64,000 bases of DNA from a virus: positions 25,924 to 89,923 of IMG/VR virus record IMGVR_UViG_3300025671_011474; one strand, 5' to 3'. The notes below the pieces were generated by a model. It did not search any database, was not told the origin of the DNA, and saw only the letters and a list, made by a program, of their open reading frames with translations. How positions within the stretch are numbered: the first letter of the stretch is position 1; the number at the start of each line of letters is the position of its first letter. Both the position numbers and the translations under genes were made by a program. Shown one piece after another: positions 15,413 to 63,213 of the stretch.

Positions 15413-16081
15413 TTGAGAACCCTTATAGGAATAGATTTCTCATTGAATTCCCCAGCATTTTGTTCGTTTAGAGATAATCATTTTAGATGGGGATCACTTA
15501 CAAGGAGTGACAGATCTGAGGAATCCTTGAAAAAGTCTAAAAATAAGCCATTTGCTTTCTTTTCGGATATTGATGAATTTGATCTTGTGTTCATGGGCAA
15601 GGAGAAAATGCCTGATGAATACACTGAAAGAGAGAGGATAAAAATTGATTATTTTTCGGATCTGGTGGAAAAATTCTGGGACTCTGTTAAGAACCACATT
15701 GAGCCTGGAGATGATGTGTTTATAGCTATAGAGGGCTTAAGCTTTGCTTCTAATGGCAATGCACTTATAGACATATCAATGGCAACTGCCTTGCTCCGGA
15801 AAAAGATAGTAGATTTCGTAGGAAGCTCAAATTTTTTCGTTTTCTCCCCAACCTCTGTTAAAAAATTTGCGATTAAGGGGAATGCCAAAAAGGATCAATT
15901 GTATGAGGCACTGATTAATACCGAAATCGTTGAAACCAACCTGAGCTATTTCACTAATATACTAAATGATAATAAGGGTGAATGGATAACCCCCAGTGGG
16001 AACGTGAATAAGCCATTGGATGATATTATTGATGCCACCTGGATATGTCTGTTTTTAGATGAGAGACTCAAAGAAGATTAA
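15413..16081 (+). CDS. RuvC-like Holliday junction resolvase
   Basis: The RNase H fold signature is visible: LIGIDFS with Asp8, FIAIEGLSFAS with Glu107, a FSPTSVKKFAIKGNAKKDQL block, and DDIIDA with acidic residues 203-207. These match the order and spacing of the acidic catalytic residues of RuvC-type nucleases. T4 uses the unrelated endonuclease VII for branch resolution, so this may be its functional replacement before packaging. The start is TTG (TTGAGAACC); no ATG precedes the first strand. The 3' end overlaps the nucleotidyltransferase gene by 23 nt. An alternative is a RuvC-fold nuclease with another role. Confidence 0.65.
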   Translation: MRTLIGIDFSLNSPAFCSFRDNHFRWGSLTRSDRSEESLKKSKNKPFAFFSDIDEFDLVFMGKEKMPDEYTERERIKIDYFSDLVEKFWDSVKNHIEPGDDVFIAIEGLSFASNGNALIDISMATALLRKKIVDFVGSSNFFVFSPTSVKKFAIKGNAKKDQLYEALINTEIVETNLSYFTNILNDNKGEWITPSGNVNKPLDDIIDATWICLFLDERLKED

Positions 16082-16805
16082 CATATTGATACCTCTGGGG
16101 GGAATGGGAAGAAGGTTTTCTGATGCTGGATACAGTGAGATAAAACCCTACATCAAAGTTATAGATGATTCCATGATAAGGACAGTAATCGATAACCTCA
16201 GAGACGGGTCTTCACACTTCATATTTGTCATCAATGAGGAGCATATTTCTATCGATGAATTCAGGGAACATATAGGTGATACTGGAATCTCTTTTGATGT
16301 CGTTTCTACTCCAGCATTAACTGAGGGCCCAGCTTGTACCGCACTCCTTGCGAAAGACCTTATTAACACTAAAAATCCACTTATTATAGCGAATTGTGAC
16401 CAGGTAATACTGGATTTTAATCTGGGTATTTTAGCCAAGTTCGCTTCTAATACCAATTGTGATGGATTTATAGGATGCTTCCTTTCCTCGTCTAAAAAAA
16501 ATAGCTATGTCAAGCTTGACCCTAATGGAGAAGTTTGTGATGTCAAGGAAAAGATAGTTATTTCGAATATAGCCACTAACGGGCTACATTACTGGGAGAG
16601 GGGTTCAGATTTTGTTGAATCTGCCCTTGAGATGATCGACAATAATGATCGATATAACAATGAGTTTTATGTTGCCCCAACATACAACTATCTTATAAAA
16701 AGGGGTAAGAAAATATTGCCATATTTTTTTAACCTTCATTTCCCGATAGGGACGCCGGAGGATTTGGAGATATACAAAAATAAAGTAAGATATGGAAGTA
16801 TCTAG
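16059..16805 (+). CDS. Sugar-phosphate nucleotidyltransferase
   Basis: The N-terminus ILIPLGGMGRRFSDAGYSE followed by IKP is the nucleotide-binding signature of sugar-1-phosphate nucleotidyltransferases (G-G-x-G-x-R and a later Lys). NCDQVI near residue 110 gives the metal-binding aspartate. At 248 residues it is a single Rossmann-like domain without the left-handed beta helix. The expected reaction is NTP plus sugar phosphate to NDP-sugar; the sugar is unknown. It opens a tightly overlapping set with a cupin, a RuBisCO-like protein, a GDPD-like protein and a glycosyltransferase-like protein, suggesting one pathway. Confidence 0.75.
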   Translation: MRDSKKINILIPLGGMGRRFSDAGYSEIKPYIKVIDDSMIRTVIDNLRDGSSHFIFVINEEHISIDEFREHIGDTGISFDVVSTPALTEGPACTALLAKDLINTKNPLIIANCDQVILDFNLGILAKFASNTNCDGFIGCFLSSSKKNSYVKLDPNGEVCDVKEKIVISNIATNGLHYWERGSDFVESALEMIDNNDRYNNEFYVAPTYNYLIKRGKKILPYFFNLHFPIGTPEDLEIYKNKVRYGSI

Positions 16806-17112
16806 AATAGAAGAATATAAGGGAGGTTGGTTTGTTGGTGATTTCTTACCTTCATCTTATGAAACCGATAAATTTGAGGTCTGCTTTAAGGAACATAAAA
16901 AGGGAGAGGAATGGACAGCACATTACCATAAGGAAGCGGACGAAATAAATTACTTACATAAGGGTAGAATGATTATACAGGATAGAGTCCTCGAATCTGG
17001 TGACGTTTTTGTCATACGGAGATATGAGATAGCTAATCCAGTTTTCCTCGAGGATTGCGAGGTTTTTATAGTTAAGACACCCTCTAAACCGGGAGATAAA
17101 TATGAAATCTGA
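16792..17112 (+). CDS. Small cupin protein
   Basis: A 106-residue single-domain cupin. It shows W-T-A-H-Y-H-K-E-A-D-E (metal-ligand style H-x-H and E), then a GRMIIQDRVLESGDVFVIRR stretch matching the second cupin motif. It overlaps the upstream transferase by 14 nt and the RuBisCO-like gene downstream by 11 nt, so the three should be translated together. Cupins next to sugar nucleotidyltransferases are often epimerases or isomerases of sugar intermediates. This one could act on the product or substrate of the RuBisCO-like enzyme. Domain call is strong; the reaction is unknown. Confidence 0.75.
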   Translation: MEVSRIEEYKGGWFVGDFLPSSYETDKFEVCFKEHKKGEEWTAHYHKEADEINYLHKGRMIIQDRVLESGDVFVIRRYEIANPVFLEDCEVFIVKTPSKPGDKYEI

Positions 17113-18295
17113 TTTATTTAAATTAAAGGAACAAATAGATAGCGAGAATTATTTCTTTGCTAAATACTATGTTGAATGTTCCAAAAATCTGGCATCTGCT
17201 GCTTGGAATATAGCGATAGGACAGAGTGTAGGTAACCCGTCTTCCAGGAGCGTATGGGAAACTGAGGAGCTGTTTCGGGATCACTCCTGTATCATAGTAG
17301 GAGATATGGAAAGCATGCTGGATAGCACCTCTGGGGAGGTTATAATTGCATTCCCTGTTGTAAATATAGATTTTAGAACAGATGGTGTATCTCACCTCTT
17401 GGTAAATGTGATGGGTGGACAGATGGATATTGAAGAGATCAAATCTTGCAAATTATTGGATATTGAATTCCCTGATTGTGTTTCGGAATGTTTTCTAGGG
17501 CCCAAGTACGGAATAAATGGTATCCGCGAATACACTGGGGTATATGATAAACCTTTACTCGGCGGTATATTAAAACCTAAGACCGGAGTTTCCCCTAGGA
17601 TAATGCTTGAGATGGTAAAAGAGATGGTTGAAGGTGGTGTGAATTTTATCAAAGAGGATGAAATACTATCAAGCCCCTCTTTTTGCAGGATAGAGGATAG
17701 GGTTCCTCTTATAATGGATTACCTGAAAGATAAAAGGGTTGTCTATTGTGTTTCCATACATTCGGATCCAGCTTATATACTGGAAAGGGTAAAGCAGGTT
17801 CATGAATTAGGTGGCAATGGGGTGCATGTCAATTTTTGGTGTGGTCTCGGGTCTTATAAAAATATCAGGGAATTGGATCTTCCCATATTCATGCACTTCC
17901 AAAAGAGCGGGGATCGGGTTATAACGAACCCGGATCACAATTTTAGTATATCCTGGCCCTTCATGTGTAAACTGGCAGGAATGATGGGTGTTGATTTTAT
18001 ACACTCTGGTATGATTGGCGGATATTATCCTGCTGATGAGGAAGAAGTTTTAAAAGCGATGGAGGAGTCAAGAAAACAAGGAACCCTTCCTGCTCTAAGC
18101 TGCGGATTTCATCCTGGTCTAGTTAACAATATAAACGAGCAGGTTGGCGTAGATTATCTAGCTAATGTAGGTGGGGCTATGCACGGTCACCCTAGTGGGA
18201 CTAAAAGTGGAGCCATAGCAATGAGGCAGGCAATAGATGGAATTGTTGGTAAAGAATTCAGGGAAGCTGTTGGTAAGTTTGGAAATCCTAAATAA
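17102..18295 (+). CDS. RuBisCO-like protein (form IV type)
   Basis: A full-length homologue (397 aa) of the RuBisCO large chain. Seen: the N-terminal YYVE motif (residues 22-25), GGILKPKTG with Lys158/Lys160, GGVNFIKEDE with Lys184, Asp186 and Glu187 (equivalents of carbamylated Lys201, Asp203, Glu204), His265, IHSG with His301 (His327), LSCGFH with Ser333, and NVGGAMHGHP with Gly357-358. Missing: the loop-6 lysine (Lys334), where the sequence reads GGYYPAD, and the Arg of the His-Arg pair. The metal-enolate site is kept but carboxylation is not expected. Family precedent is enolase, isomerase or decarboxylase chemistry on sugar-like or methylthio substrates. The neighbours favour a sugar substrate. 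Confidence 0.88.
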   Translation: MKSDLFKLKEQIDSENYFFAKYYVECSKNLASAAWNIAIGQSVGNPSSRSVWETEELFRDHSCIIVGDMESMLDSTSGEVIIAFPVVNIDFRTDGVSHLLVNVMGGQMDIEEIKSCKLLDIEFPDCVSECFLGPKYGINGIREYTGVYDKPLLGGILKPKTGVSPRIMLEMVKEMVEGGVNFIKEDEILSSPSFCRIEDRVPLIMDYLKDKRVVYCVSIHSDPAYILERVKQVHELGGNGVHVNFWCGLGSYKNIRELDLPIFMHFQKSGDRVITNPDHNFSISWPFMCKLAGMMGVDFIHSGMIGGYYPADEEEVLKAMEESRKQGTLPALSCGFHPGLVNNINEQVGVDYLANVGGAMHGHPSGTKSGAIAMRQAIDGIVGKEFREAVGKFGNPK

Positions 18296-18298
18296 TTG

Positions 18299-18742
18299 AT
18301 GATACTTATATCTCACCGGGGTAATGTAAACGGGTCATCTCCTGAGAGGGAAAACTCGACTGATTATATTTTGAAAGCAATGGAAAAATATGACGTTGAG
18401 ATAGATTTATGGTTTGTTGATGGGCTTTTTAAACTTGGCCATGATAGACCGCAGTATGACACACAGTACTCCTTCTTGGTTGAACACTCCGAAAAGCTTT
18501 GGATACACTGCAAGAATATCCCTTCCTTCAGGGAACTTTCCGTTATGGATCCTAAGGGGAACGTGCTGAACTATTTTATGCATGATTCTGATGATGTTGT
18601 CTTTACTAGCAAAGGATATAGATGGGCTCTTGTTGGTAACCAACCTATAGAAGGAAGCATAGCTGTTATGCCCGAGATCCACGGGGAGGATATCTCCCTG
18701 TGTATGGGTGTCTGTAGTGACTATATAGAAAGGTATCAATGA
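18299..18742 (+). CDS. Glycerophosphodiester phosphodiesterase-like protein
   Basis: The N-terminus reads MILISHRGNVNG then ENSTDYILKAMEKYDVEIDLW and GHDRPQY. This is the H-R-G / E-N / E-I-D / G-H-D series of the GDPD TIM-barrel family, with the WIHCKN strand later. At 147 residues it is about 100 shorter than free-standing phosphodiesterases, so it may be a reduced version. The ATG at 18299 is preferred over an adjacent TTG; it follows the RuBisCO-like stop by 3 nt. Short GDPD-like proteins of this type occur in glycan clusters, consistent with its neighbours. The substrate is unknown. Confidence 0.7.
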   Translation: MILISHRGNVNGSSPERENSTDYILKAMEKYDVEIDLWFVDGLFKLGHDRPQYDTQYSFLVEHSEKLWIHCKNIPSFRELSVMDPKGNVLNYFMHDSDDVVFTSKGYRWALVGNQPIEGSIAVMPEIHGEDISLCMGVCSDYIERYQ

Positions 18743-19524
18743 GGGTTGCTTTACTTCTTTCTGGTCAATTTAGAGAGGGCCTTGAATGTTATCCATATAT
18801 AAAGAGCAGAATACTCGATGTGTATTCACCCGATGTTTTTATCTCGTGCTGGAATCCTTCGGATCATATAAATTCTACAGTACAAGCAGATACGTCTAAT
18901 CTTAGTGATAGTCTCTCGGTTGGTGATATTATCTCCATGTATAAGCCCAAACTGATGCTATCCGAGGATTTTGATTCTGATTCCATAACAAGAATCCTCG
19001 AAAGATCAAACTTATATGATGAGTATTCTCCGATGAATGGTGAAATGAACCCGCAGTCGGTATTCTGTATGTGGTATAAAATAGACTCCTCATATTCCCT
19101 CATGGAAAAATACGAGAGCTCCGTGGGAAAGAAATATGACTATGTTATAAAAGGTAGATTCGATATAAAGATCCATAACGATCTTTTTTTCGACCCTGAC
19201 AAGTCAGTAATAAATATTCCGCATGGGTTTGATTGGAGGGGTGGAATTAACGATGTAATAGCATATGGGGGTAGAAATCCTATGTCTCACTACTGTGGAT
19301 TGTATAGAAGCATAGAAAACTATCTTTCTAGAGATTCTGTTTTTTTCCACCCTGAAACCCTATTAAGAAACCATTTGCTTATATCCGGATATAAAATAAT
19401 AAGGAGTGATCTACAAGTTTCTCTCCGAGGGAATATGCTATCTCACAAGGAGGTAAATAGGAGTAACAATATGAAAAAAAGTTCGGGATATATACAATCT
19501 AGGGGAAACTTTTGGGACACTTAG
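18739..19524 (+). CDS. Glycosyltransferase-like protein
   Basis: It begins MRVALLLSGQFREGLECY and has DVFISCWNPSD at about residue 35. This start is typical of a family of surface-polysaccharide transferases that read as LLSGQxR. A DYVIKGRFDIKI segment near residue 135 may hold a D-x-D-like metal site. The start ATG overlaps the upstream stop (ATGA), so it is coupled to the sugar cluster. It probably uses the nucleotide sugar made by the cluster to decorate DNA, virion or host surface. The family name and target are inference. Confidence 0.6.
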   Translation: MRVALLLSGQFREGLECYPYIKSRILDVYSPDVFISCWNPSDHINSTVQADTSNLSDSLSVGDIISMYKPKLMLSEDFDSDSITRILERSNLYDEYSPMNGEMNPQSVFCMWYKIDSSYSLMEKYESSVGKKYDYVIKGRFDIKIHNDLFFDPDKSVINIPHGFDWRGGINDVIAYGGRNPMSHYCGLYRSIENYLSRDSVFFHPETLLRNHLLISGYKIIRSDLQVSLRGNMLSHKEVNRSNNMKKSSGYIQSRGNFWDT

Positions 19525-25755: not shown

Positions 25756-27669
25756 ATGGCAGGGATTAATCATCTATATGACATGTACAATAAGAAGGGA
25801 TCTGATTTTATAAATCAACTCTTCAACCAGTTTGTGACTATTAACGAGAAGATGGACGGGTCTGCATTTTCTTTCGAAAGGGATAGGGAAAGCGGGAAGT
25901 TCAGGTTTTATAGAAGGGACCAGAGAAATCCAATAACCTTAGTGGATAGGACCCTCATGAAGTATTATGAGAAGCCTATACAATACATAGAGTCCCTCCC
26001 TCCCCATATCCTAGAGAGAATACCAAGAGGATGGAGATTTGGTCTTGAATACTTTGCCAATAAATCCCCAGTGGAAATTGTGTATGATCGTATACCAAAG
26101 AACAATCTGATACTTTCCTACGTACACCAGATGGGTGACGGGGGTAAAATCAAGAAAACCGTACAAGATAAGGACGAATTAAACAATTGGGCGGATCTCC
26201 TGGGTGTTGAAAAACCTCCGATTATATTCCAGGGAAGACTTGACGAAGAGCAAAAGTCGGAACTGATGGAATTCATGGAAACCCCGTTCAAGGAGTTGGT
26301 CGAGAAATTCCGTACAAATAGTTTTGTCCGATTTATAATAAAGACTCTAAATCCAGGTCTTACTAAGACAGCTCTGAATGATGATCTTGATAAGGATGTT
26401 GAGGGAATAGTTTTTAGATTTGGAGAACCTGATAAGGAAAATGACACTGTACTAGCCAAGATGGTGGATCCGGTTTTTACTGAACTGGCTAAGCAGAAAG
26501 CCCAGGAGAGGAGATCGAAGAAACCTAGCGATTTTTTGGGAATCACTATCATGGATGTGATGAATTTTATTCTCGAGGAGGGTATAGATTCATTTGAGGT
26601 TGAGGGTGAAACTGACGATGAGAGGTATATTTCATTCATGTCCGAGGTCTTTGTGAGGTTTTTGGATCTGTATTCTAAGAAATATAGTGGTACTGATTTT
26701 GAGGAACCAGATTATCTTAAAAGAGATGAATTTAGATTGAATCTTGATATGATTAAAGATAGCAGGGTTCTTAAGCTGGTTAAGAAGGATGATTCTTTTG
26801 AAGCCCTATTTAAGCTAATGCTCAATTCATTCAGAAAAATTAAGACCAGAGCAGGAGGTATCATTACCCCAGGGATGAAGGATCAACTCAATTCTCTCAT
26901 CAATCAGATAAAGGAACACATCAAAAAACCAAAAAAGAAGGTTAACGAGTCTCAATTTTTCTCTTTTAATGAGTTTAGAAAGGAGTTTATAGCACCGGTT
27001 AATTATTTAAAGGAGGAAGACGATTTATCCGATAGTGACGAGGACCACTTCCATTCTTATGATGAATTTATAAGTGCCTTGGAAACTATCGATACTAGTT
27101 CACCTAAGGAGGTGGGAATTTCTGAGGTGAGAGAGGATAATGAGGATGTGTCGAGAAAGATCAATGTTATTATGGGGAGATTCCAGCCATTCCATTCGGG
27201 ACATCTAAAGATGGCTAGATATATGATGGATAAGAACGGTAGCCCTTCTTATCTTTTGGTGGTTCATCCAGGACATAATAAATCTGGCAAATCTCCATTC
27301 GACCCTGCCACGGTTAAAAGATATATGGATTCCGTTGTTCAGAATAACGAGGAGATCGCTGGATATGAGATGATTACCAGAGGACTTTTGGGATCTGGAA
27401 TTGCAAAACTTATCTCTATGGGATATGATCCTCAATTGATTGGTGCTGGGGAGGATAGAATTGACGATTATTCAAAGCAGCTCGATTACATAAAGGTATC
27501 CGATATAAAGGACAAACTAGGTCCGGGCTTTTCTTTAGAGGAGACTCCTAGAGGAACATCAGGGACTAAGGTTAGACAAACCCTAGCAGATAGGGATTTT
27601 TCTAAATTTAAAAAGCTAGTCCCGAGAGAGATTTCCAACCTTTATAACGATCTGATAAAGGATGTATGA
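25756..27669 (+). CDS. RNA ligase-like / NMN adenylyltransferase-like fusion
   Basis: Two enzymes in one chain. N-terminal: EKMDGSAFSF with Lys32 as the likely adenylated lysine of the ligase/capping-enzyme superfamily, followed by WRFGLEYF and, near residue 215, EGIVFRFG (motif IV-like). C-terminal: INVIMGRFQPFHSGH (469-483) and ETPRGTSGTKVRQTL, the signatures of NMN adenylyltransferases. The linker (about 395-445) contains two copies of a leader-like motif (QFFSFNEFRKEF, HFHSYDEFISALE) resembling the capsid-targeting leaders. NMNAT makes NAD while RNA ligases use ATP or NAD-like chemistry, so a joint RNA-end or NAD role is conceivable. Both activities are predicted from motifs only. Confidence 0.75.
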   Translation: MAGINHLYDMYNKKGSDFINQLFNQFVTINEKMDGSAFSFERDRESGKFRFYRRDQRNPITLVDRTLMKYYEKPIQYIESLPPHILERIPRGWRFGLEYFANKSPVEIVYDRIPKNNLILSYVHQMGDGGKIKKTVQDKDELNNWADLLGVEKPPIIFQGRLDEEQKSELMEFMETPFKELVEKFRTNSFVRFIIKTLNPGLTKTALNDDLDKDVEGIVFRFGEPDKENDTVLAKMVDPVFTELAKQKAQERRSKKPSDFLGITIMDVMNFILEEGIDSFEVEGETDDERYISFMSEVFVRFLDLYSKKYSGTDFEEPDYLKRDEFRLNLDMIKDSRVLKLVKKDDSFEALFKLMLNSFRKIKTRAGGIITPGMKDQLNSLINQIKEHIKKPKKKVNESQFFSFNEFRKEFIAPVNYLKEEDDLSDSDEDHFHSYDEFISALETIDTSSPKEVGISEVREDNEDVSRKINVIMGRFQPFHSGHLKMARYMMDKNGSPSYLLVVHPGHNKSGKSPFDPATVKRYMDSVVQNNEEIAGYEMITRGLLGSGIAKLISMGYDPQLIGAGEDRIDDYSKQLDYIKVSDIKDKLGPGFSLEETPRGTSGTKVRQTLADRDFSKFKKLVPREISNLYNDLIKDV

Positions 27670-32901: not shown

Positions 32902-33225
32902 TTATTTTTCCCCCTTCTGCTGAGGTAGAAGCTCCTCGTTTATTCGTCTCTTAAGATATTTAATTATTTTCTTCGGTTCTCCGTTATTCTCTTTGACTAT
33001 CCTATTAAACTCTTCCTCCTCGGAAAGGGTATCCAGATAGTTGTATAGGTCGGTTGTTTGGAACATTGAGTCCACTACTTGGGGCATTTGAGTATATGCT
33101 GGGCGGTAGTTCCTGGAATTAACGCTGTCCTTGTACCATTCACCCGGTACTACAACGCTACCTGGAGCTTCCGAAACGTAATATTCTAATAAGAAATCTT
33201 CGAAACTTTTGATGTTAGCTTTCAT
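32902..33225 (-). CDS. Small protein with capsid-targeting-like leader (107 aa)
   Basis: The N-terminus MKANIKSFEDFLLEYYVSE-APGS is a textbook leader match (F-x-x-F-L-L-E and a second V-S-E before Ala). It stands 13 nt before the amidase gene on the minus strand, so the pair is cotranscribed. The rest is hydrophilic, rich in Tyr/Asn and acidic residues. Being paired with an endolysin, it could be a packaged partner that helps at entry or lysis. A promoter-like box lies only 6 nt before its ATG. The family is unknown. Confidence 0.6.
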   Translation of the reverse strand: MKANIKSFEDFLLEYYVSEAPGSVVVPGEWYKDSVNSRNYRPAYTQMPQVVDSMFQTTDLYNYLDTLSEEEEFNRIVKENNGEPKKIIKYLKRRINEELLPQQKGEK

Positions 33226-33231
33226 ATACTT

Positions 33232-33242
33232 CTATATATCCT
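33232..33242 (-). promoter_or_regulatory. Late-promoter-like box on minus strand
   Basis: Read on the minus strand it is GATATATAG, 6 nt before the ATG of the 107-aa gene. This is closer than the usual 17-24 nt, so any transcript would be nearly leaderless or start elsewhere. Confidence 0.4.
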
Positions 33243-33283
33243 CCAACCTGATCTGGTTAGGATATAATAAATCTAAATATTTG

Positions 33284-34696
33284 ATGATAGTTGATATTGA
33301 GAATAAAGGAACCTACTTGAAGGTATCAAGTTTTTCTGAGGACGGTGATTTAATATTTATTAATGTTCCGGTCCCTGATAAGGAGAGATTCATATGGGAA
33401 AAATGCTCACCATCAGATAGTAGAAGGGAGAAGGAATGGGAGAGCTGGGACGGGTTCCCAGTTAGAAAAGCAAAAACCCAGAAATATGACAAGTATCGGA
33501 TGATACAGATCTTGGAAGAGGCTGATCCGGAGTTAACTAAGCCCCTTTTTGAATTCCAGACTCCCAAAAAATATTTTGTCGATATAGAGGTAGAGATGAC
33601 CGACGAGATGAGGGATTCACTCGATACAGCATCGGCAAAGAATAAGGTTCTTTCAATAGGTATAGCCACTGACCGATGTAAGGCGATTATGCTTGGTCTA
33701 GACCCACTTACCCCTGAAGAGCAAGCCGATATCCATAGAAGGACTAACGAGTATCTGTCTCCAATGGGCGATGAGTGGAGTTTTAAGTATCATAAATTCG
33801 AGAGTGAATATGATATGCTTTATACTTTCTTCAAGAACCTAGCACCCAAAATGTCCCTGATTACTGGATGGAACTGGTTTGGATATGACTGGCCGTATTT
33901 GGTTAACAGAGCTAAGAGGTTGGGCATAGATCCTAAGATAATATCTCCTTCCAATTGGCTCATTGGAAAGAACAACCTCCCCATGCACTTGCTCATGGTC
34001 GATTATCTGGAGATATACCGGAAGTGGGACCGAGTAATAAAAATTAAAGAAAGTAATAGACTTGATTACGTAGCGGAAAAGGCCACGGGACTTAAAAAGA
34101 TAGTCTATAATGGATCCCTAAGGGACCTGTATCAGTCCGATTTTCCAAAATTTATACTGTATAATGTTATTGACTGCGCTCTTGTTCACTATATAGACGT
34201 AAAGCTTCAAACAATGCTTACTTATCTCAAAATTGCCAATTTAAATGGCGTTGAGATAAGTAGGGCTCTTTCTCCTGTTTGGTCAACGGAAGTGCTGATG
34301 CTCCGCAAATTCTTAGAGAGGGGACAGGTTTTTGTTAACGAGAGGAAAGAGGAAAGCCACGTTAAATTTATAGGTGGATATGTGAAAGAGCCCATCAAAG
34401 GTCTACATGAATGGGTGGCTTGTTACGACTTTGCCTCTCTGTATCCTAATACGATTGTTCAATGGGGAATATCCCCTGAGGTTTATAAAGGAAAGGAGGG
34501 AATAAACTTATCCGAAGTTAAGGAAGGATGGGTGAGAACTTCATCTAAGGCCGTTTTTGGAGGTGACTCGGAAAATCCAATACTTAAGACAATAATTAAA
34601 GATCTTTATGCCAAGCGTAAAGCAACTAAAGATCGAATGTTAAAACTCCAGATTGAAATTGATCAGATGGAGAAACAATTAAAAAAAATGGGGTAG
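33284..34696 (+). CDS. 43A: DNA polymerase, N-terminal part (3'-5' exonuclease and palm motif A)
   Basis: A family B polymerase that ends half way. Exo I FVDIEVE, Exo II ITGWNWFGYDWPYL, Exo III YNVIDCALVHYID, and motif A CYDFASLYPN (Asp382, about residues 380-389) are all present. After motif A the protein continues into a long amphipathic helix (KRKATKDRMLKLQIEIDQM) and stops at residue 470. Motifs B and C are missing here and are found in the gene at 53630. I chose the ATG at 33284; an upstream frame would overlap the divergent gene. The break is at the fingertip of the fingers domain, so both halves can still fold and associate. Confidence 0.85.
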   Translation: MIVDIENKGTYLKVSSFSEDGDLIFINVPVPDKERFIWEKCSPSDSRREKEWESWDGFPVRKAKTQKYDKYRMIQILEEADPELTKPLFEFQTPKKYFVDIEVEMTDEMRDSLDTASAKNKVLSIGIATDRCKAIMLGLDPLTPEEQADIHRRTNEYLSPMGDEWSFKYHKFESEYDMLYTFFKNLAPKMSLITGWNWFGYDWPYLVNRAKRLGIDPKIISPSNWLIGKNNLPMHLLMVDYLEIYRKWDRVIKIKESNRLDYVAEKATGLKKIVYNGSLRDLYQSDFPKFILYNVIDCALVHYIDVKLQTMLTYLKIANLNGVEISRALSPVWSTEVLMLRKFLERGQVFVNERKEESHVKFIGGYVKEPIKGLHEWVACYDFASLYPNTIVQWGISPEVYKGKEGINLSEVKEGWVRTSSKAVFGGDSENPILKTIIKDLYAKRKATKDRMLKLQIEIDQMEKQLKKMG

Positions 34697-41215: not shown

Positions 41216-42499
41216 ATGGCATCCAAAAAATCAAGGAGCAAATCCAGACCTGCAATTAACAAAGAAAGTAAAAAAGAAATCGCTACGGAGGATGCATCTA
41301 CGGAAAAAGTAGATAAGTCCCAATCGATTAGTCTCTGTCTTGTTATGATCGTGAAAGATGAGGAGGACACGATCCGAAAATGTTTAACCAGATGTGCACC
41401 ATATATCTCATATTATGTAATATGTGACACTGGATCAAGCGATAATACAATAGATGAGATAAAATCAACTATGGATGAGCTTGGTATAGAAGGCGAAATC
41501 TACGAGAGACCCTGGGTTAACTTTGAAGTTAATCGCACGGAAAGTCTGGAATTAGCCAGAGGTAAATGTGATTACTCATGGATAATAGATGCTGATGATA
41601 CCTTCGAAGTTTTAAATCCCAACATTAATCCATTCTCGGATTTACCCTCTGATGTTGATTGCTTCCAGATAATGTACAGATTAAATAACCTACAGTATCA
41701 TCGAGCTCAGATAGTTAGATCCGATCAAGATTGGGTATACAAAGGGGTTTTGCATGAGTATTTGGATCTACCTGGAAAAGAGCCGGTAATACAATACCAA
41801 ATTCCAGGTGACAGATGTAGGGTAGATGCCGATATAAGTCCTCTGAAAAGGGCTAGCTCCTTGGAAGAAAAATACGCAAAGGATGCTGAAATATTGGAGG
41901 AAGCATTAGATAAGGATCCAGAAAATACCCGATATATGTTCTATTTGGCTCAAAGTTATAGAGATTCCCAACAGAAGGTAAAAGCCATAGACGCTTATCA
42001 AAAAAGGGCAGATGCTGGCGGATGGGATGAGGAGGTTTACTATTCCCTTTACATGATAGGTAGATTAAAAGAGCAGCTCGGGAGGCACCCCGATGAAGTC
42101 ATTACTGCCTATTCCAAAGCCTGGGAATACAGACCGGAAAGGCTCGAAGCTATATTCCATGCTATGAGAAAACTAAGGGAGCAGGAAAGATGGGTTCTTT
42201 CCTTTACTTACGGAAATATGGCAGTAAAGAATCCAGGAACATCGGATATATTATTTGTAGAACCTGAAATTTGGCAATGGCGTCTTCTTGATGAATTTGC
42301 ATTAGCTGCATATCACACAGGAAATCCTGAAATCTCCGCTGAGAAGATGGAAGCCATCATGAGGATGCCTTTCTTTGTTACAATGAGCGAAAATGAAAAA
42401 TCTAGGATAAGGAAAAACCATGAATATTTTAGGGAAGCAGCTTTGAAAAAAGCCAAAGCTATCGAGGAGAAAAAGAAGCTCAGTAAACAGGATACCTGA
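41216..42499 (+). CDS. Glycosyltransferase family 2 protein with TPR-like C-terminus
   Basis: The GT-A domain starts near residue 39 with ISLCLVMIVKDEEDTIRKCL, then CDTGSSDNTID and DYSWIIDADDTFEV with the D-x-D-like metal motif. The C-terminal half contains helical repeats (YMFYLAQSYRDSQQKVKAID and similar), TPR-like and rich in R/E. This resembles SunS-type peptide/protein glycosyltransferases. The N-terminal 35 residues are Lys/Ser-rich and disordered. It could glycosylate a virion protein or use the nucleotide sugar from the 16-19 kb cluster. The target is unknown. Confidence 0.75.
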   Translation: MASKKSRSKSRPAINKESKKEIATEDASTEKVDKSQSISLCLVMIVKDEEDTIRKCLTRCAPYISYYVICDTGSSDNTIDEIKSTMDELGIEGEIYERPWVNFEVNRTESLELARGKCDYSWIIDADDTFEVLNPNINPFSDLPSDVDCFQIMYRLNNLQYHRAQIVRSDQDWVYKGVLHEYLDLPGKEPVIQYQIPGDRCRVDADISPLKRASSLEEKYAKDAEILEEALDKDPENTRYMFYLAQSYRDSQQKVKAIDAYQKRADAGGWDEEVYYSLYMIGRLKEQLGRHPDEVITAYSKAWEYRPERLEAIFHAMRKLREQERWVLSFTYGNMAVKNPGTSDILFVEPEIWQWRLLDEFALAAYHTGNPEISAEKMEAIMRMPFFVTMSENEKSRIRKNHEYFREAALKKAKAIEEKKKLSKQDT

Positions 42500-53629: not shown

Positions 53630-54775
53630 ATGTCTGAGAGGGAAGAATTAAAGGAAAAAATTGAGGTTCTTACGGCTCTTAAGAATGAGCTTAAGAACGA
53701 GGAGCAAGCTGTAAAACTTACCATGAATTCCATTTATGGTGCAATAGGGAATAGCTGGTTTGCCTGTTTTAATCCCGAAGTAGCTGAAGCTGTTACCCTA
53801 CAAGGACAAAGCTTGATTAAGCACTCCGAGAAGATTCTCGATAAGTATTTTCATGAGTTTTGGCATAAGGACAAGGAATTGCATGATAAGCTGGGACTAA
53901 CATCGGTTAAGAAGATACACAAGCCGATGGTCGTTTATGGTGATACTGACTCCAACTATGTAACCTTTCAGGAAGTCGTAGCCTCTTGTGAAGGATGGGA
54001 AGGAAGTGAAAAGGATTTGATATTAGCAATAAATGAGAATCGATTAGTCGGATATCTCAAGAAGTGCTTTGATATCTACGCAGAAAAATGGGGAACTGAT
54101 AATTATCAGGATTTTGAGATGGAGACTCTCTCCATCAACGGGATATTCCTGGGTAAGAAAAAATATGTTACCAATATCGTTTATTCCGAAGGTGTACATT
54201 CCGAGCCTTTAACATCCATCAAAACTACTGGGGTTGAGATGGTGAAAGGCGGAACCCCATCATTCGTAAGGGAGAAGCTCATATACTTAACCAAATTTAT
54301 TTTTAGCAAGGGTAATAAATTCGAGCTCCGAGAATTTGTTCAGGAGCTCAAGAAGATCAAGAGAGACTTTAAGGCTCAAGAGCCCGAAAATATATCCGCT
54401 GCTATCATGGTTAATAACTACGAGAAGTTTGTATTAAACGACACAACCAATCTGGAGGTAGCCAAGGGTTGTCCTATACATGTTAGAGCATCAGCATATC
54501 ACAATTACCTTCTGAATTCAACGAAGTTCAAGGATAAATATCCCTTGATCGGGGGCGGGGAAAAGGTTAGATTTTATTTTGTAAAGAGGAAGAACGTAAT
54601 GGAAAATAACGTTTTTGCATATGCTCAGGGTACATTCCCACATGAATTTGCTCCACCTATAGATTTTGATGAGCAGTTTACTAAAACTATCCTTGATCCG
54701 ATTAACAGATTTATAGAGGTAATGGGTTACAACCCGATAAGCCCTAATTTATTTATGATAAACACTCTTTTTTAA
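53630..54775 (+). CDS. 43B: DNA polymerase, C-terminal part (fingers, palm motifs B and C, thumb)
   Basis: This completes the split polymerase. It begins with a charged helix (MSEREELKEKIEVLTALKNE), then motif B VKLTMNSIYGAIGNS (Lys29, Asn33, Tyr36, Gly37) and motif C VVYGDTDSNY (103-108), followed by a thumb domain with KKKYVTNIVYSEG. Exonuclease and motif A are missing and are in the gene at 33284. Together the halves give about 851 residues, near T4 gp43 (898). The charged start mirrors the helix ending the first half, so the two fingers helices could pair. It follows the clamp gene by 8 nt. Confidence 0.9.
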   Translation: MSEREELKEKIEVLTALKNELKNEEQAVKLTMNSIYGAIGNSWFACFNPEVAEAVTLQGQSLIKHSEKILDKYFHEFWHKDKELHDKLGLTSVKKIHKPMVVYGDTDSNYVTFQEVVASCEGWEGSEKDLILAINENRLVGYLKKCFDIYAEKWGTDNYQDFEMETLSINGIFLGKKKYVTNIVYSEGVHSEPLTSIKTTGVEMVKGGTPSFVREKLIYLTKFIFSKGNKFELREFVQELKKIKRDFKAQEPENISAAIMVNNYEKFVLNDTTNLEVAKGCPIHVRASAYHNYLLNSTKFKDKYPLIGGGEKVRFYFVKRKNVMENNVFAYAQGTFPHEFAPPIDFDEQFTKTILDPINRFIEVMGYNPISPNLFMINTLF

Positions 54776-55262: not shown

Positions 55263-56741
55263 ATGGGAAAAATATCCCCAGCTCTTAATTATAGCTCTTT
55301 CTTAAACGAAGCAGAGGATAGAGGGTCAATAGATATAATAATTTTAAGTGGTCAATCCTCGCCCAGTAAAACAGCTGAATCTTTCATTAGTGAGTGTTCG
55401 AACAGAGGAATAGAATGTAAGGCAGTCAATGTCAATAACTGCGTACTCGAGAAGGTTTATAACGGACATTTACTTAGAGAAGAAAAAGGGGATGAAACCA
55501 TAGAGATACTAATACGCCCGGAAACTACAGCCATAGTTCCGAGAAGAGGAGTCATAACCAACTCGCATACTAAGAGGATCATGTCGGATCTGGAAGACTC
55601 CAGATACTTTTGTCTGAACTCCCTCGAGTCTATAGAGATCTGCGAAAGCAAATACACAACTTCACAGGTACTTGACGATTCAGGAATTCCCGTTCCTAGG
55701 TATTCTTTAGTAAGTGGAGAAGATACACTTGATAGATCGCTCGAAGAAGTTGGTGGGGAATTTCCGATAGTAATGAAGCTGTTAGCGGGTACTCAGGGAA
55801 TCGGAGTATCCGTAGTTGATTCCTATGCTTCTCTTAAATCTGTATATCAGACAATAAGGAAGCTCGATCCGGATGGTGAGATCCTACTCCAGGAAAAAAT
55901 AGATTCCAACTTCGATATTAGGGTTCAAGTCATTACTAAGAAGTTTGACCCTCTTAATCCTGGCAAGGATAATTTTGAAATTCTGGGTGCTATGAAAAGA
56001 GAGGCAGTTGAGAAGGATTTCAGAACTAACTATTCACTAGGAGGAAGCGTTTCCTCGTATGAAATCACAGAGGAGATCGAAAAGATAGCTTGCGAATCTG
56101 CTAATGCTGTAGCTTGTCATTGGTGTGGTGTTGATATTATGATAGATTCAAAAACCGGGAATCCCTATGTTCTGGAGGTTAATTCCTCCCCGGGAACAGA
56201 GGGTATATCAGAGGCTATAGGAAAACCTATTGTGGGTGATGTGATCGATTTTATATCCAACAAGAACAATTGGTCTTACACCAAGATGGAGGTGGGATAT
56301 CTAGAAACGGTGGAAATCCCTCAAATAGGAAAATTTGTAGCTAAATTTGATACTGGTAATGGTTCCACCGCTAGCTCTATACATGCGGATGAGCTTAATA
56401 TAGATGGAGACCAACTAAAATGGAAGATCGGTGATGTTGAGTTAGAAAATAAAATAGTAGGATATACAAACACAGAAATTGGAAGAGAAACGGTAGAGAG
56501 ACCAATAATAGAGGTTGATCTAATTTTTAATGGTGTTAAGATACCAGGTGTTAAAATAGCACCAACTGATAGGGTATCCAAATCCACCCCTTTGCTTATT
56601 AACCGAAAACTTATGAAGAGATTGGGTGTTATGGTCAATCCACATAAGGCTTTTGTGATATCCGATCCTATCGATGATTACTCCCCACTTAAGACAAAAG
56701 GGGAAAGGCACGGAGGTATAGAATTTGATCAGAGTAATTGA
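55263..56741 (+). CDS. RimK-like ATP-grasp ligase fused to RimB-like protease, with capsid-targeting-like leader
   Basis: Three parts. The leader MGKISPALNYSSFLNE-AEDR matches the capsid-targeting pattern (Y-x-x-F-L-N-E before Ala). The ATP-grasp region (about 25-335) has IPVPRYSLVSG, GGEFPIVMKLLAGTQGIGVS, EILLQEKIDSNFDIRVQVIT, GGSVSSYEITEEIEKIACES and NPYVLEVNSSPGTEGISEAI, the RimK signature. The C-terminal region has KFVAKFDTGNGSTASSIHA with Asp363-Thr-Gly (RimB/retropepsin-like D-T-G) and LLINRKLMKRLGVMVNPHK. RimK adds glutamates to ribosomal protein S6; RimB removes or trims them. A packaged fusion could rewire host ribosomes at entry. The substrate is inferred. Confidence 0.8.
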   Translation: MGKISPALNYSSFLNEAEDRGSIDIIILSGQSSPSKTAESFISECSNRGIECKAVNVNNCVLEKVYNGHLLREEKGDETIEILIRPETTAIVPRRGVITNSHTKRIMSDLEDSRYFCLNSLESIEICESKYTTSQVLDDSGIPVPRYSLVSGEDTLDRSLEEVGGEFPIVMKLLAGTQGIGVSVVDSYASLKSVYQTIRKLDPDGEILLQEKIDSNFDIRVQVITKKFDPLNPGKDNFEILGAMKREAVEKDFRTNYSLGGSVSSYEITEEIEKIACESANAVACHWCGVDIMIDSKTGNPYVLEVNSSPGTEGISEAIGKPIVGDVIDFISNKNNWSYTKMEVGYLETVEIPQIGKFVAKFDTGNGSTASSIHADELNIDGDQLKWKIGDVELENKIVGYTNTEIGRETVERPIIEVDLIFNGVKIPGVKIAPTDRVSKSTPLLINRKLMKRLGVMVNPHKAFVISDPIDDYSPLKTKGERHGGIEFDQSN

Positions 56742-61429: not shown

Positions 61430-62617
61430 ATGAGCAAAGAAAATATTCCTCTTTTTAAAGTTTTCATGTCACCCCAAGCTGGAGATAAGGTTGCTGAGGT
61501 TTTAAATAGTGGCTACATAGGACAGGGTGCAAAAGTCGATCAATTTGAGTCTGATCTGAGAAAGTACTTTAATCAAGACTATATCTCGACAGTAAACTCG
61601 GGAACCTCAGCTTTACACCTAGCTCTTCATCTATTGAAAAAACCAACCAAGATTACACAGATATATCACGGGGCAATTGCTGCGGATTCTATATGGCCTG
61701 GGCTTCAGCCAGGTGATGAGGTTTTAGCAACCCCTCTGACGTGTACCGCTTCAAACTGGCCTATCTTAGCAAATGGGCTGAAAATAAAATGGGTAGACAT
61801 AGATCCTGAAACACTCAACATGGATCTAGACGATCTTGCAAGGAAGATAACGCATAAAACAAAGGTTATCATGCTGGTCCATTGGGGAGGATATCCGAAT
61901 GACCTCGATAAGATCAGAAGTATACAGGAAAAATCTTACCTTAAACTGGGTTTCAAACCAGCGGTTATTGAGGACGGGGCTCATTCATTTGGGTCGAGGT
62001 ATAAAGGAAAATTAATAGGATCCCACGGAAATCTAACTATGTTCTCCCTTCAGGCTATAAAGCATGTAACCTCAGTTGACGGGGGATTACTTATCTCTCC
62101 ACATAAAGAATTGCACAACAGAGGTAGACTAATCAGGTGGTATGGAATAGATAGGGACGGAGATCGCAAGGATTTTAGATGTGAGGCGAATATAGAGGAA
62201 TGGGGATATAAATTTCACATGAACGACGTCTGTGCAACCGTGGGCATAGAAAATCTAAAACATGCGGATGATATAGTTAATTCTCATAGATCGAATGCTT
62301 CTTTCTACGACTCGGAGCTTTCTGATGCAGACGGTGTGAATCTCCTAAGGAGGGATGAAGGTTTTGATTCCTCCTTCTGGATCTATTCAATGCTCGTGGA
62401 TAATAGGGATGGGTTCTATAGATGGATGGATGAATGTGGAATTTCGGTATCTCAAGTCCATGAGAGAAACGATAAGCATACCTGCGTTGCAGAATATAGA
62501 TCTTTTCTACCAACCCTGGATAAGACTATAGGTAATGTTGTTTCAATCCCAGTAGGTTGGTGGGTGACTAATGAACAAAGAGAGTATATTGCGGATTGCA
62601 TTAAGAAGGGATGGTAG
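61430..62617 (+). CDS. DegT/DnrJ/EryC1-type PLP aminotransferase
   Basis: The fold is shown by VNSGTSALHLALHLL, GDEVLATPLTCTAS, IKWVDIDPETLNMDLDDL, VIEDGAHSFGSRYKGK and MFSLQAIKHVTSVDGG with Lys211 as the PLP lysine. It has 395 residues, normal for the family. Such enzymes convert a keto-sugar nucleotide to an amino sugar. It starts the last operon of the window, with a GNAT acetyltransferase overlapping its stop and a glycosyltransferase-like gene after that, the standard set for an acetylated amino-sugar glycan. Confidence 0.88.
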   Translation: MSKENIPLFKVFMSPQAGDKVAEVLNSGYIGQGAKVDQFESDLRKYFNQDYISTVNSGTSALHLALHLLKKPTKITQIYHGAIAADSIWPGLQPGDEVLATPLTCTASNWPILANGLKIKWVDIDPETLNMDLDDLARKITHKTKVIMLVHWGGYPNDLDKIRSIQEKSYLKLGFKPAVIEDGAHSFGSRYKGKLIGSHGNLTMFSLQAIKHVTSVDGGLLISPHKELHNRGRLIRWYGIDRDGDRKDFRCEANIEEWGYKFHMNDVCATVGIENLKHADDIVNSHRSNASFYDSELSDADGVNLLRRDEGFDSSFWIYSMLVDNRDGFYRWMDECGISVSQVHERNDKHTCVAEYRSFLPTLDKTIGNVVSIPVGWWVTNEQREYIADCIKKGW

Positions 62618-63213
62618 AGATAATTTCTTTAATTACTATGTATAAACACAAGAATGGGATAACTCTATTAAAAATAGAGAGTGAGGATCTTCCGATTCTT
62701 AAGGATCTCAAGAATGAGTCATGGTTTGGAACCCACAATATATCCTTTGTTAATTCGATGGACCAGGAAAGGTGGTTTTCATCTCTAGATAGCTCCAAAT
62801 CACTAATTCTTAAAGCTCTGAACCAGTCCGGAGATATGGTTGGTTTATATAAGATACAAAATATAGATTGGGTTAATAGAAGGTATGATTCTGCCCATGA
62901 TGTGATATCGGATCATAGGGGACAAGGTTATTCCAAACCTGTACTAGAAGCTGGGATAGACTTTGGCTTCGAGGTTTTAAATATGAATAGGATTGATACT
63001 GAGGTCTTAGAGAATAATATAGCTAGTCTGAAGAGTGCCCTTTGGGTTGGTTTTGTAAAGGAGGGAATCAAAAGGAGATGTATCCATAAATGCGGGCAAT
63101 ACCTGGATAGCATATTCCTGGGAATCCTGAGGGAAGATTGGGTTAGTCTTAGCCGGGTGGTTGATATGTCAGGTCTATGTAACATTTCTTATGTACCCAA
63201 GGATGGAAAATAA
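62611..63213 (+). CDS. GNAT-family N-acetyltransferase (RimJ-like)
   Basis: The domain contains MVGLYKIQNIDWVNRRYDSA, DHRGQGYSKPVLEAGIDFGF (the R-G-x-G-Y acetyl-CoA loop), LNMNRIDTEVLENNIASLKS and GFVKEGIKRR. It starts at an ATG overlapping the aminotransferase stop; another in-frame ATG nine codons later is also possible. It probably acetylates the amino sugar made upstream. The stop overlaps the next gene by 11 nt. Confidence 0.75.
   Translation: MVEIISLITMYKHKNGITLLKIESEDLPILKDLKNESWFGTHNISFVNSMDQERWFSSLDSSKSLILKALNQSGDMVGLYKIQNIDWVNRRYDSAHDVISDHRGQGYSKPVLEAGIDFGFEVLNMNRIDTEVLENNIASLKSALWVGFVKEGIKRRCIHKCGQYLDSIFLGILREDWVSLSRVVDMSGLCNISYVPKDGK

Follow-up and report, generated by a model that had tools for sequence, protein, structure and literature searches.

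A mostly viral clade of RuBisCO-like proteins that lacks key carboxylase residues is encoded beside sugar nucleotidyltransferases and may supply glycan biosynthesis

Enzymes built on the RuBisCO fold usually rely on metal-assisted removal of a proton beside a carbonyl, giving an enediolate. The RuBisCO-like proteins (RLPs) whose roles are established serve methionine salvage or help to break down unusual sugars and sugar acids; OiaX, a 3-oxo-isoapionate-4-P decarboxylase, takes a sugar-acid phosphate as substrate. The roles in RuBisCO of the active-site residues considered below are likewise established. PMC10173188 cites known RLP subgroups together with a 3-keto-ribitol-bisphosphate oxygenase. 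For viruses, PMC12607003 groups viral RbcL with 'RbcL-like' proteins, reports this RbcL from random IMG/VR viruses too and lists it under CO2 fixation, and PMC12615777 reports that an rbcL from a soil virus has carboxylase activity. A sugar-nucleotide module is not described in the sections of the latter two papers considered here, and no description of such a module with an RLP was found in the open-access full-text subset of the literature.

The window studied here, a stretch of 64,000 nucleotides from a source record of 89,923 bases, is a fragment of a T4-like tailed-phage genome encoding gp32, a primase, a UvsW-type helicase, topoisomerase II and ribonucleotide reductase. Two ORFs separated by about 19 kb have family B DNA polymerase domains, one with exonuclease and early polymerase parts (33209-34696) and the other with a later polymerase part (53630-54775), possibly representing a split polymerase gene. 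Other genes of the window encode a 637 aa protein (25756-27669) that starts with an RNA ligase domain and matches a cytidyltransferase-like PHROG in its C-terminal part, a GT2 glycosyltransferase with TPR repeats (41216-42499), a RimK-like ATP-grasp protein (55263-56741) and a DegT-type sugar aminotransferase adjoining a GNAT acetyltransferase (61430-63213), a possible further glycan pair. The RLP gene is located in a same-strand run composed as follows.

15413-16081, + strand: RuvC-like protein
16059-16805, + strand: stand-alone sugar-1-phosphate-type nucleotidyltransferase (NTase), 248 aa (PF00483, E=9.5e-10)
16792-17112, + strand: small cupin, 106 aa, with an HxH...E metal-ligand pattern (Cupin_2, E=0.0048, under the curated cut-off)
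17102-18295, + strand: RLP, assigned to the form IV type by fold, active-site map and tree, 397 aa (PF00016, E=2.5e-34)
18299-18742, + strand: minimal GDPD-like protein, about 147-148 aa, recognised by motifs with weaker profile and fold support
18739-19524, + strand: ORF of 261 aa at the cluster end, possibly a glycosyltransferase (PHROG 13607, function label unknown)
after 19524, + strand: gp32-like single-strand binding protein, next in the tightly packed run

The overlapping arrangement described in the first-pass annotation is borne out by tight packing: the NTase and cupin genes overlap by 14 nt, the cupin and RLP genes by 11 nt, and the GDPD-like gene and the 261-aa ORF by 4 nt, while 3 nt separate the RLP stop from the GDPD-like ATG (18299). 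The identities it gave to the partner proteins fared unevenly. Assignment of the NTase to PF00483 is firm (38.9 bits, cut-off 21.2), and a profile search also matches the protein to the structure of a nucleoside-diphosphate-sugar pyrophosphorylase (4evw, E=2.5e-31). The cupin label holds through its ligands H44, H46 and E51, this HxH...E pattern being invariant in a 30-sequence alignment, although the protein scores under the Pfam cut-off. The GDPD-like label is carried by the motifs HRG, EN, ExD, GHD, HxK and a C-terminal CxD, invariant or nearly so among 31 sequences, and less strongly by profile (GDPD 7e0v, E=2.3e-4) and fold; a Pfam search gave no match. The AF2 model of this protein (pLDDT 97.7) has Thermus thermophilus GDPD 1v8e as its top fold match (E=3.5e-3, probability 1.00, TM 0.42), and its matches to GDPD folds are modest overall (TM 0.42-0.52, E values of at least 3.5e-3). 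It reads as a shortened GDPD relative with a presumed function. The term 'glycosyltransferase-like' for the 261-aa ORF, on the other hand, finds no family support in Pfam or NCBIfam, and PHROG 13607 has no assigned function. Relatives of this ORF are close in only 2 of the first 16 loci compared and distant (23-28% identity) in 6 of the 16.

The RLP reading frame is intact from its ATG start with no internal stop, and thus shows no sign of the frame-disrupting sequencing error that had been named as a possible refutation. Membership of the superfamily is clear from PF00016 (RuBisCO_large; 119.3 bits, curated cut-off 30.1), and yet the protein falls short of every curated NCBIfam RuBisCO and RLP cut-off. 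Its top NCBIfam match by E-value is rubisco_III (1.7e-54), at 185 bits against a cut-off of 497; it reaches 126.7 bits with the MtnW profile TIGR03332 (cut-off 513.6), 155.1 with NF007095 (cut-off 409) and 138.1 with the OiaX profile NF042437 (cut-off 700). An AlphaFold2 model, built from 13 relatives, adopts the RuBisCO fold (mean pLDDT 85.3), with a type III Rubisco bearing 2-CABP as best PDB match (TM 0.83, E=8e-34). Model pLDDT falls below 50 at residues 268-276 and 308-310, which correspond to the altered R295 loop and to loop 6. In a dN/dS comparison of the window with locus L001, the synonymous sites of the RLP gene were saturated.

We aligned the RLP to form I, II and III RuBisCO, MtnW and OiaX-type references, using form I numbering, and surveyed the active site across 46 non-redundant relatives, of which 45 are viral and one comes from a MAG. 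All residues listed in the first-pass annotation are in place, namely K158 (K175), K160 (K177), K184 (K201), D186, E187, H301 (H327), S333 (S379) and G357-G358, and the loop-6 lysine is indeed missing, Y308 taking the place of K334. The Mg/carbamate triad K184, D186 and E187 is hence retained, as are both the K175 and K177 lysines. Across the survey, K175, K177, K201, D203, E204, H327, S379, G381 and two glycines of the GGG phosphate loop are kept in 46/46 relatives, and a second group is replaced just as uniformly: E60 by G, T65 by N, N123 by G, H294 by Q, R295 by K, K334 by Y and G380 by C. Such uniform replacement indicates constraint and selection toward a different reaction, and not decay. 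With Q in place of H294 and K in place of R295, the bound substrate may be something other than a classic bisphosphate.

These data bear on the label of carbon-fixation RuBisCO that a KEGG-type annotation would attach to the viral gene. The E-value ranking, led by type III RuBisCO, speaks for that label; against it, four residues that mark carboxylase forms I-III (K334, E60, N123 and H294) are Y, G, G and Q in all 46 relatives, a RuBisCO small subunit was not found in 27 RLP-bearing virus records, and the NTase is a fixed neighbour of the gene (see below). We regard carbon fixation by this protein as having a negligible chance of being right. Judged by its sequence, the window RLP is a form IV-type RuBisCO-like protein and no carboxylase, as had originally been proposed.

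The same protein family extends well beyond this phage. A single-sequence scan of viral contigs located RLP relatives at 16 loci, and an alignment-based scan found them on 198 contigs, which reach 518 kb in length (L052); the best 80 of these 198 viral loci were kept for later comparison. Neither the isolate phages of INPHARED nor PHROGs gave an RLP match. A scan of cellular genomes returned one RLP only, in a Patescibacteria MAG, and a search of 192 Patescibacteria genomes for a second cellular source otherwise gave only distant RuBisCO homologues. The MAG contig also has cellular genes, and next to the RLP on it are genes for an NTase, a GDPD-like protein, a cupin and GT2 proteins. A phage origin of that contig was considered and is unsupported, the ten proteins scanned including an M23/LysM peptidase, a Mg-chelatase-type protein and a GT2. 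Plasmids gave only other RLP and RuBisCO types (<32% identity among the records listed), most commonly the OiaX / four-carbon-acid-kinase type. The clade is thus widespread and mostly viral, not the oddity of a single phage, and the first-pass annotation understated it.

When the viral contigs were scanned with alignments of forms I-III and of the OiaX type, no confirmed relatives emerged, an absence that is no proof given that these scans need exact short patterns. Set against 198 contigs carrying the RLP clade, this result argues for checking loop 6 before viral 'rbcL' genes are counted as carbon-fixation genes, a name that those of the RLP clade should not receive. The soil viral rbcL of PMC12615777 would differ from the protein described here.

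Phylogenetic analysis recovers the viral RLP family as monophyletic (100/100 in two trees), with the MAG sequence nested within viral diversity. The stem of the clade is long (2.5-3.5 changes per site), and its sister differs between the two trees, which have long branches. The references comprised one MtnW and no IV-Photo, IV-NonPhoto or IV-GOS sequences, and ocean (GOS) RuBisCO homologues placed in new branches without known members (PMC1821046) may belong to the RLP clade. In the trees with this single MtnW reference the clade is separate (100/100). One tree offers MtnW as a possible sister (86/75, short of significance, where long branches meet), the one observation that favours a methionine-salvage enolase or isomerase. 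We consider that assignment highly improbable: the 126.7 bits obtained lie far below the MtnW cut-off of 513.6, the clade retains K177 and H327, both replaced in MtnW, and the MtnA family (PF01008) was not found in the 27 virus records, nor were salvage neighbours seen. The methionine-salvage setting named earlier as a refutation is therefore not what these loci present.

The trees also bear on an OiaX-like decarboxylase acting on a phosphorylated 3-keto sugar acid, with the shortened keto-sugar phosphate then being nucleotidylated. Such an activity would fit the common fold and metal site and the prevalence of the OiaX / four-carbon-acid-kinase type among plasmid RLPs. However, the viral clade lies outside the OiaX-type clade (100/100), scores 138.1 bits where the OiaX cut-off is 700, and retains K177, which OiaX-type RLPs replace; the four-carbon acid kinase (PF07005) was not found in the 27 virus records. 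A decarboxylase role hence appears unlikely, if still worth weighing.

Gene neighbourhoods tie the clade to sugar activation. Among 82 loci, an NTase is present in 79, a GDPD-like gene in 72 and a cupin in 65. In a non-redundant set of 44 RLP loci with enough upstream sequence, the corresponding counts within 6 kb of the RLP are 43/44, 37/44 and 36/44. Immediately upstream of the RLP stands a cupin gene (33/44) or an NTase gene (7/44), usually overlapping it, with a median gap of -4 nt. The NTase is a stand-alone protein of about 240 aa in 39/44 loci, and in the other 5/44 no stand-alone form is near by. Further neighbours, named by eye from sequence, include GDP-mannose-dehydratase-like, UDP-glucose-dehydrogenase-like, GT11-like, DegT-like and WecB-like proteins. 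The nucleotide-sugar and glycan context initially proposed for one phage is therefore conserved, recurring in dozens of divergent viruses as well as in one cellular genome. Of the five-gene set in that proposal, the NTase and RLP form the core and the cupin and GDPD-like genes accompany them in most loci; the fifth gene is not constant, with close relatives in the 2/16 loci noted above.

So frequent a GDPD-like partner points to phosphodiester chemistry, and the P1 phosphate site is changed (T65 to N, K334 to Y), both of which would suit a tailoring enzyme that acts on a nucleotide-sugar or phosphodiester precursor and not upstream of the NTase. We know of no RLP that acts on nucleotide sugars, and the metal-site lysines and glycines of the protein are those used with small phosphates; we thus find a tailoring role for the RLP quite improbable.

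Loci without the RLP offer a natural comparison. The RLP is present in 70 of the best 80 cupin loci and absent in ten, several of which are near-duplicates. All ten RLP-less viral loci carry a longer NTase (364-462 aa), the extra domain in their representatives being an N- or C-terminal HAD phosphatase or RpiB. Fused NTases are present in a few RLP loci too. In the isolate cyanophage Bellamy, which lacks the RLP, a PfkB-type kinase gene is followed by an NTase-RpiB fusion and then the cupin, and a HAD phosphatase is also encoded. A tree of the NTases places the RpiB-fused forms next to the main clade linked to the RLP (support 88). Together, the fused NTases of RLP-less loci and this tree suggest that the RLP substitutes for a different route of sugar-phosphate preparation. 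RpiB (PF02502) was not found in the 27 RLP-bearing virus records, which is weak evidence given its rarity in viral records. Since replacement by RpiB is seen in three sequences and most RLP-less loci have HAD phosphatases, the case for treating the RLP as equivalent to an isomerase is no more than suggestive. Another widespread type of viral NTase, fused to an N-terminal HAD phosphatase, was also noted (L148, L169, L176, L180, L023, L060); some loci carry it together with the RLP-linked NTase.

The loss of the parts needed for carboxylation, combined with a compact set of sugar-activation genes, makes it probable that the RLP produces an unusual sugar unit and does not fix carbon. Beside the observed fold, carboxylase-residue loss and NTase linkage, we infer an isomerisation step: the RLP would isomerise or epimerise a phosphorylated keto-sugar drawn from host metabolism by way of an enediolate. 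The neighbouring NTase would join this product to a nucleotide, after which the activated sugar would be transferred onto a glycan of the virion or the infected cell, and the cupin and GDPD-like protein could tailor or trim the product or its linkage. That the clade enolises or isomerises a sugar phosphate which the NTase activates for glycan synthesis is, in our estimate, evenly balanced between right and wrong, with reaction and substrate both putative. Among the points that weigh against it are the changes at H294 and R295 and the 5/44 RLP loci that have no stand-alone NTase near by. We put at about an even chance the broader proposal that a large, mostly viral RLP clade, covering all RuBisCO homologues found in the uncultured virus contigs scanned, was recruited to glycan biosynthesis, where it would provide the precursor of a perhaps undescribed nucleotide-activated sugar. 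If true, this would mean a new job for the well-known RuBisCO fold and a route to a sugar not yet described.

A comparison with known systems places these features in context. Form III RuBisCO (Thermococcus kodakarensis 3a12; 8dht) shares with the RLP the fold (TM 0.83), the metal/carbamate triad, K175, K177, H327 and S379, but identity is about 25% and E60, N123, H294, R295 and K334 are replaced in the RLP; carboxylase chemistry is not expected. MtnW, the DK-MTP-1-P enolase, resembles it in form IV fold and metal triad, and by analogy its enolase chemistry may serve as a model for the proposed step; in contrast to the RLP, it lacks K177 and H327 and is surrounded by methionine-salvage genes. 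The OiaX / four-carbon-acid-kinase RLPs are likewise of form IV and have a sugar context, if a catabolic one, whereas they keep H294, R295 and K334, lack K177, are linked to a four-carbon acid kinase and form a separate clade. A genomic parallel is offered by cyanophages of the Kyanoviridae: Bellamy, SynMITS9220M01, S-PRM1 and B23 carry a related NTase (34-42% identity), a GDPD-like gene and surrounding glycan genes, and the cupin of Bellamy and SynMITS9220M01 is related to that of the window (42%). Unlike the window, these Kyanoviridae glycan loci have no RLP and carry HAD phosphatases instead, accompanied in Bellamy by the PfkB-type kinase and the NTase-RpiB fusion.
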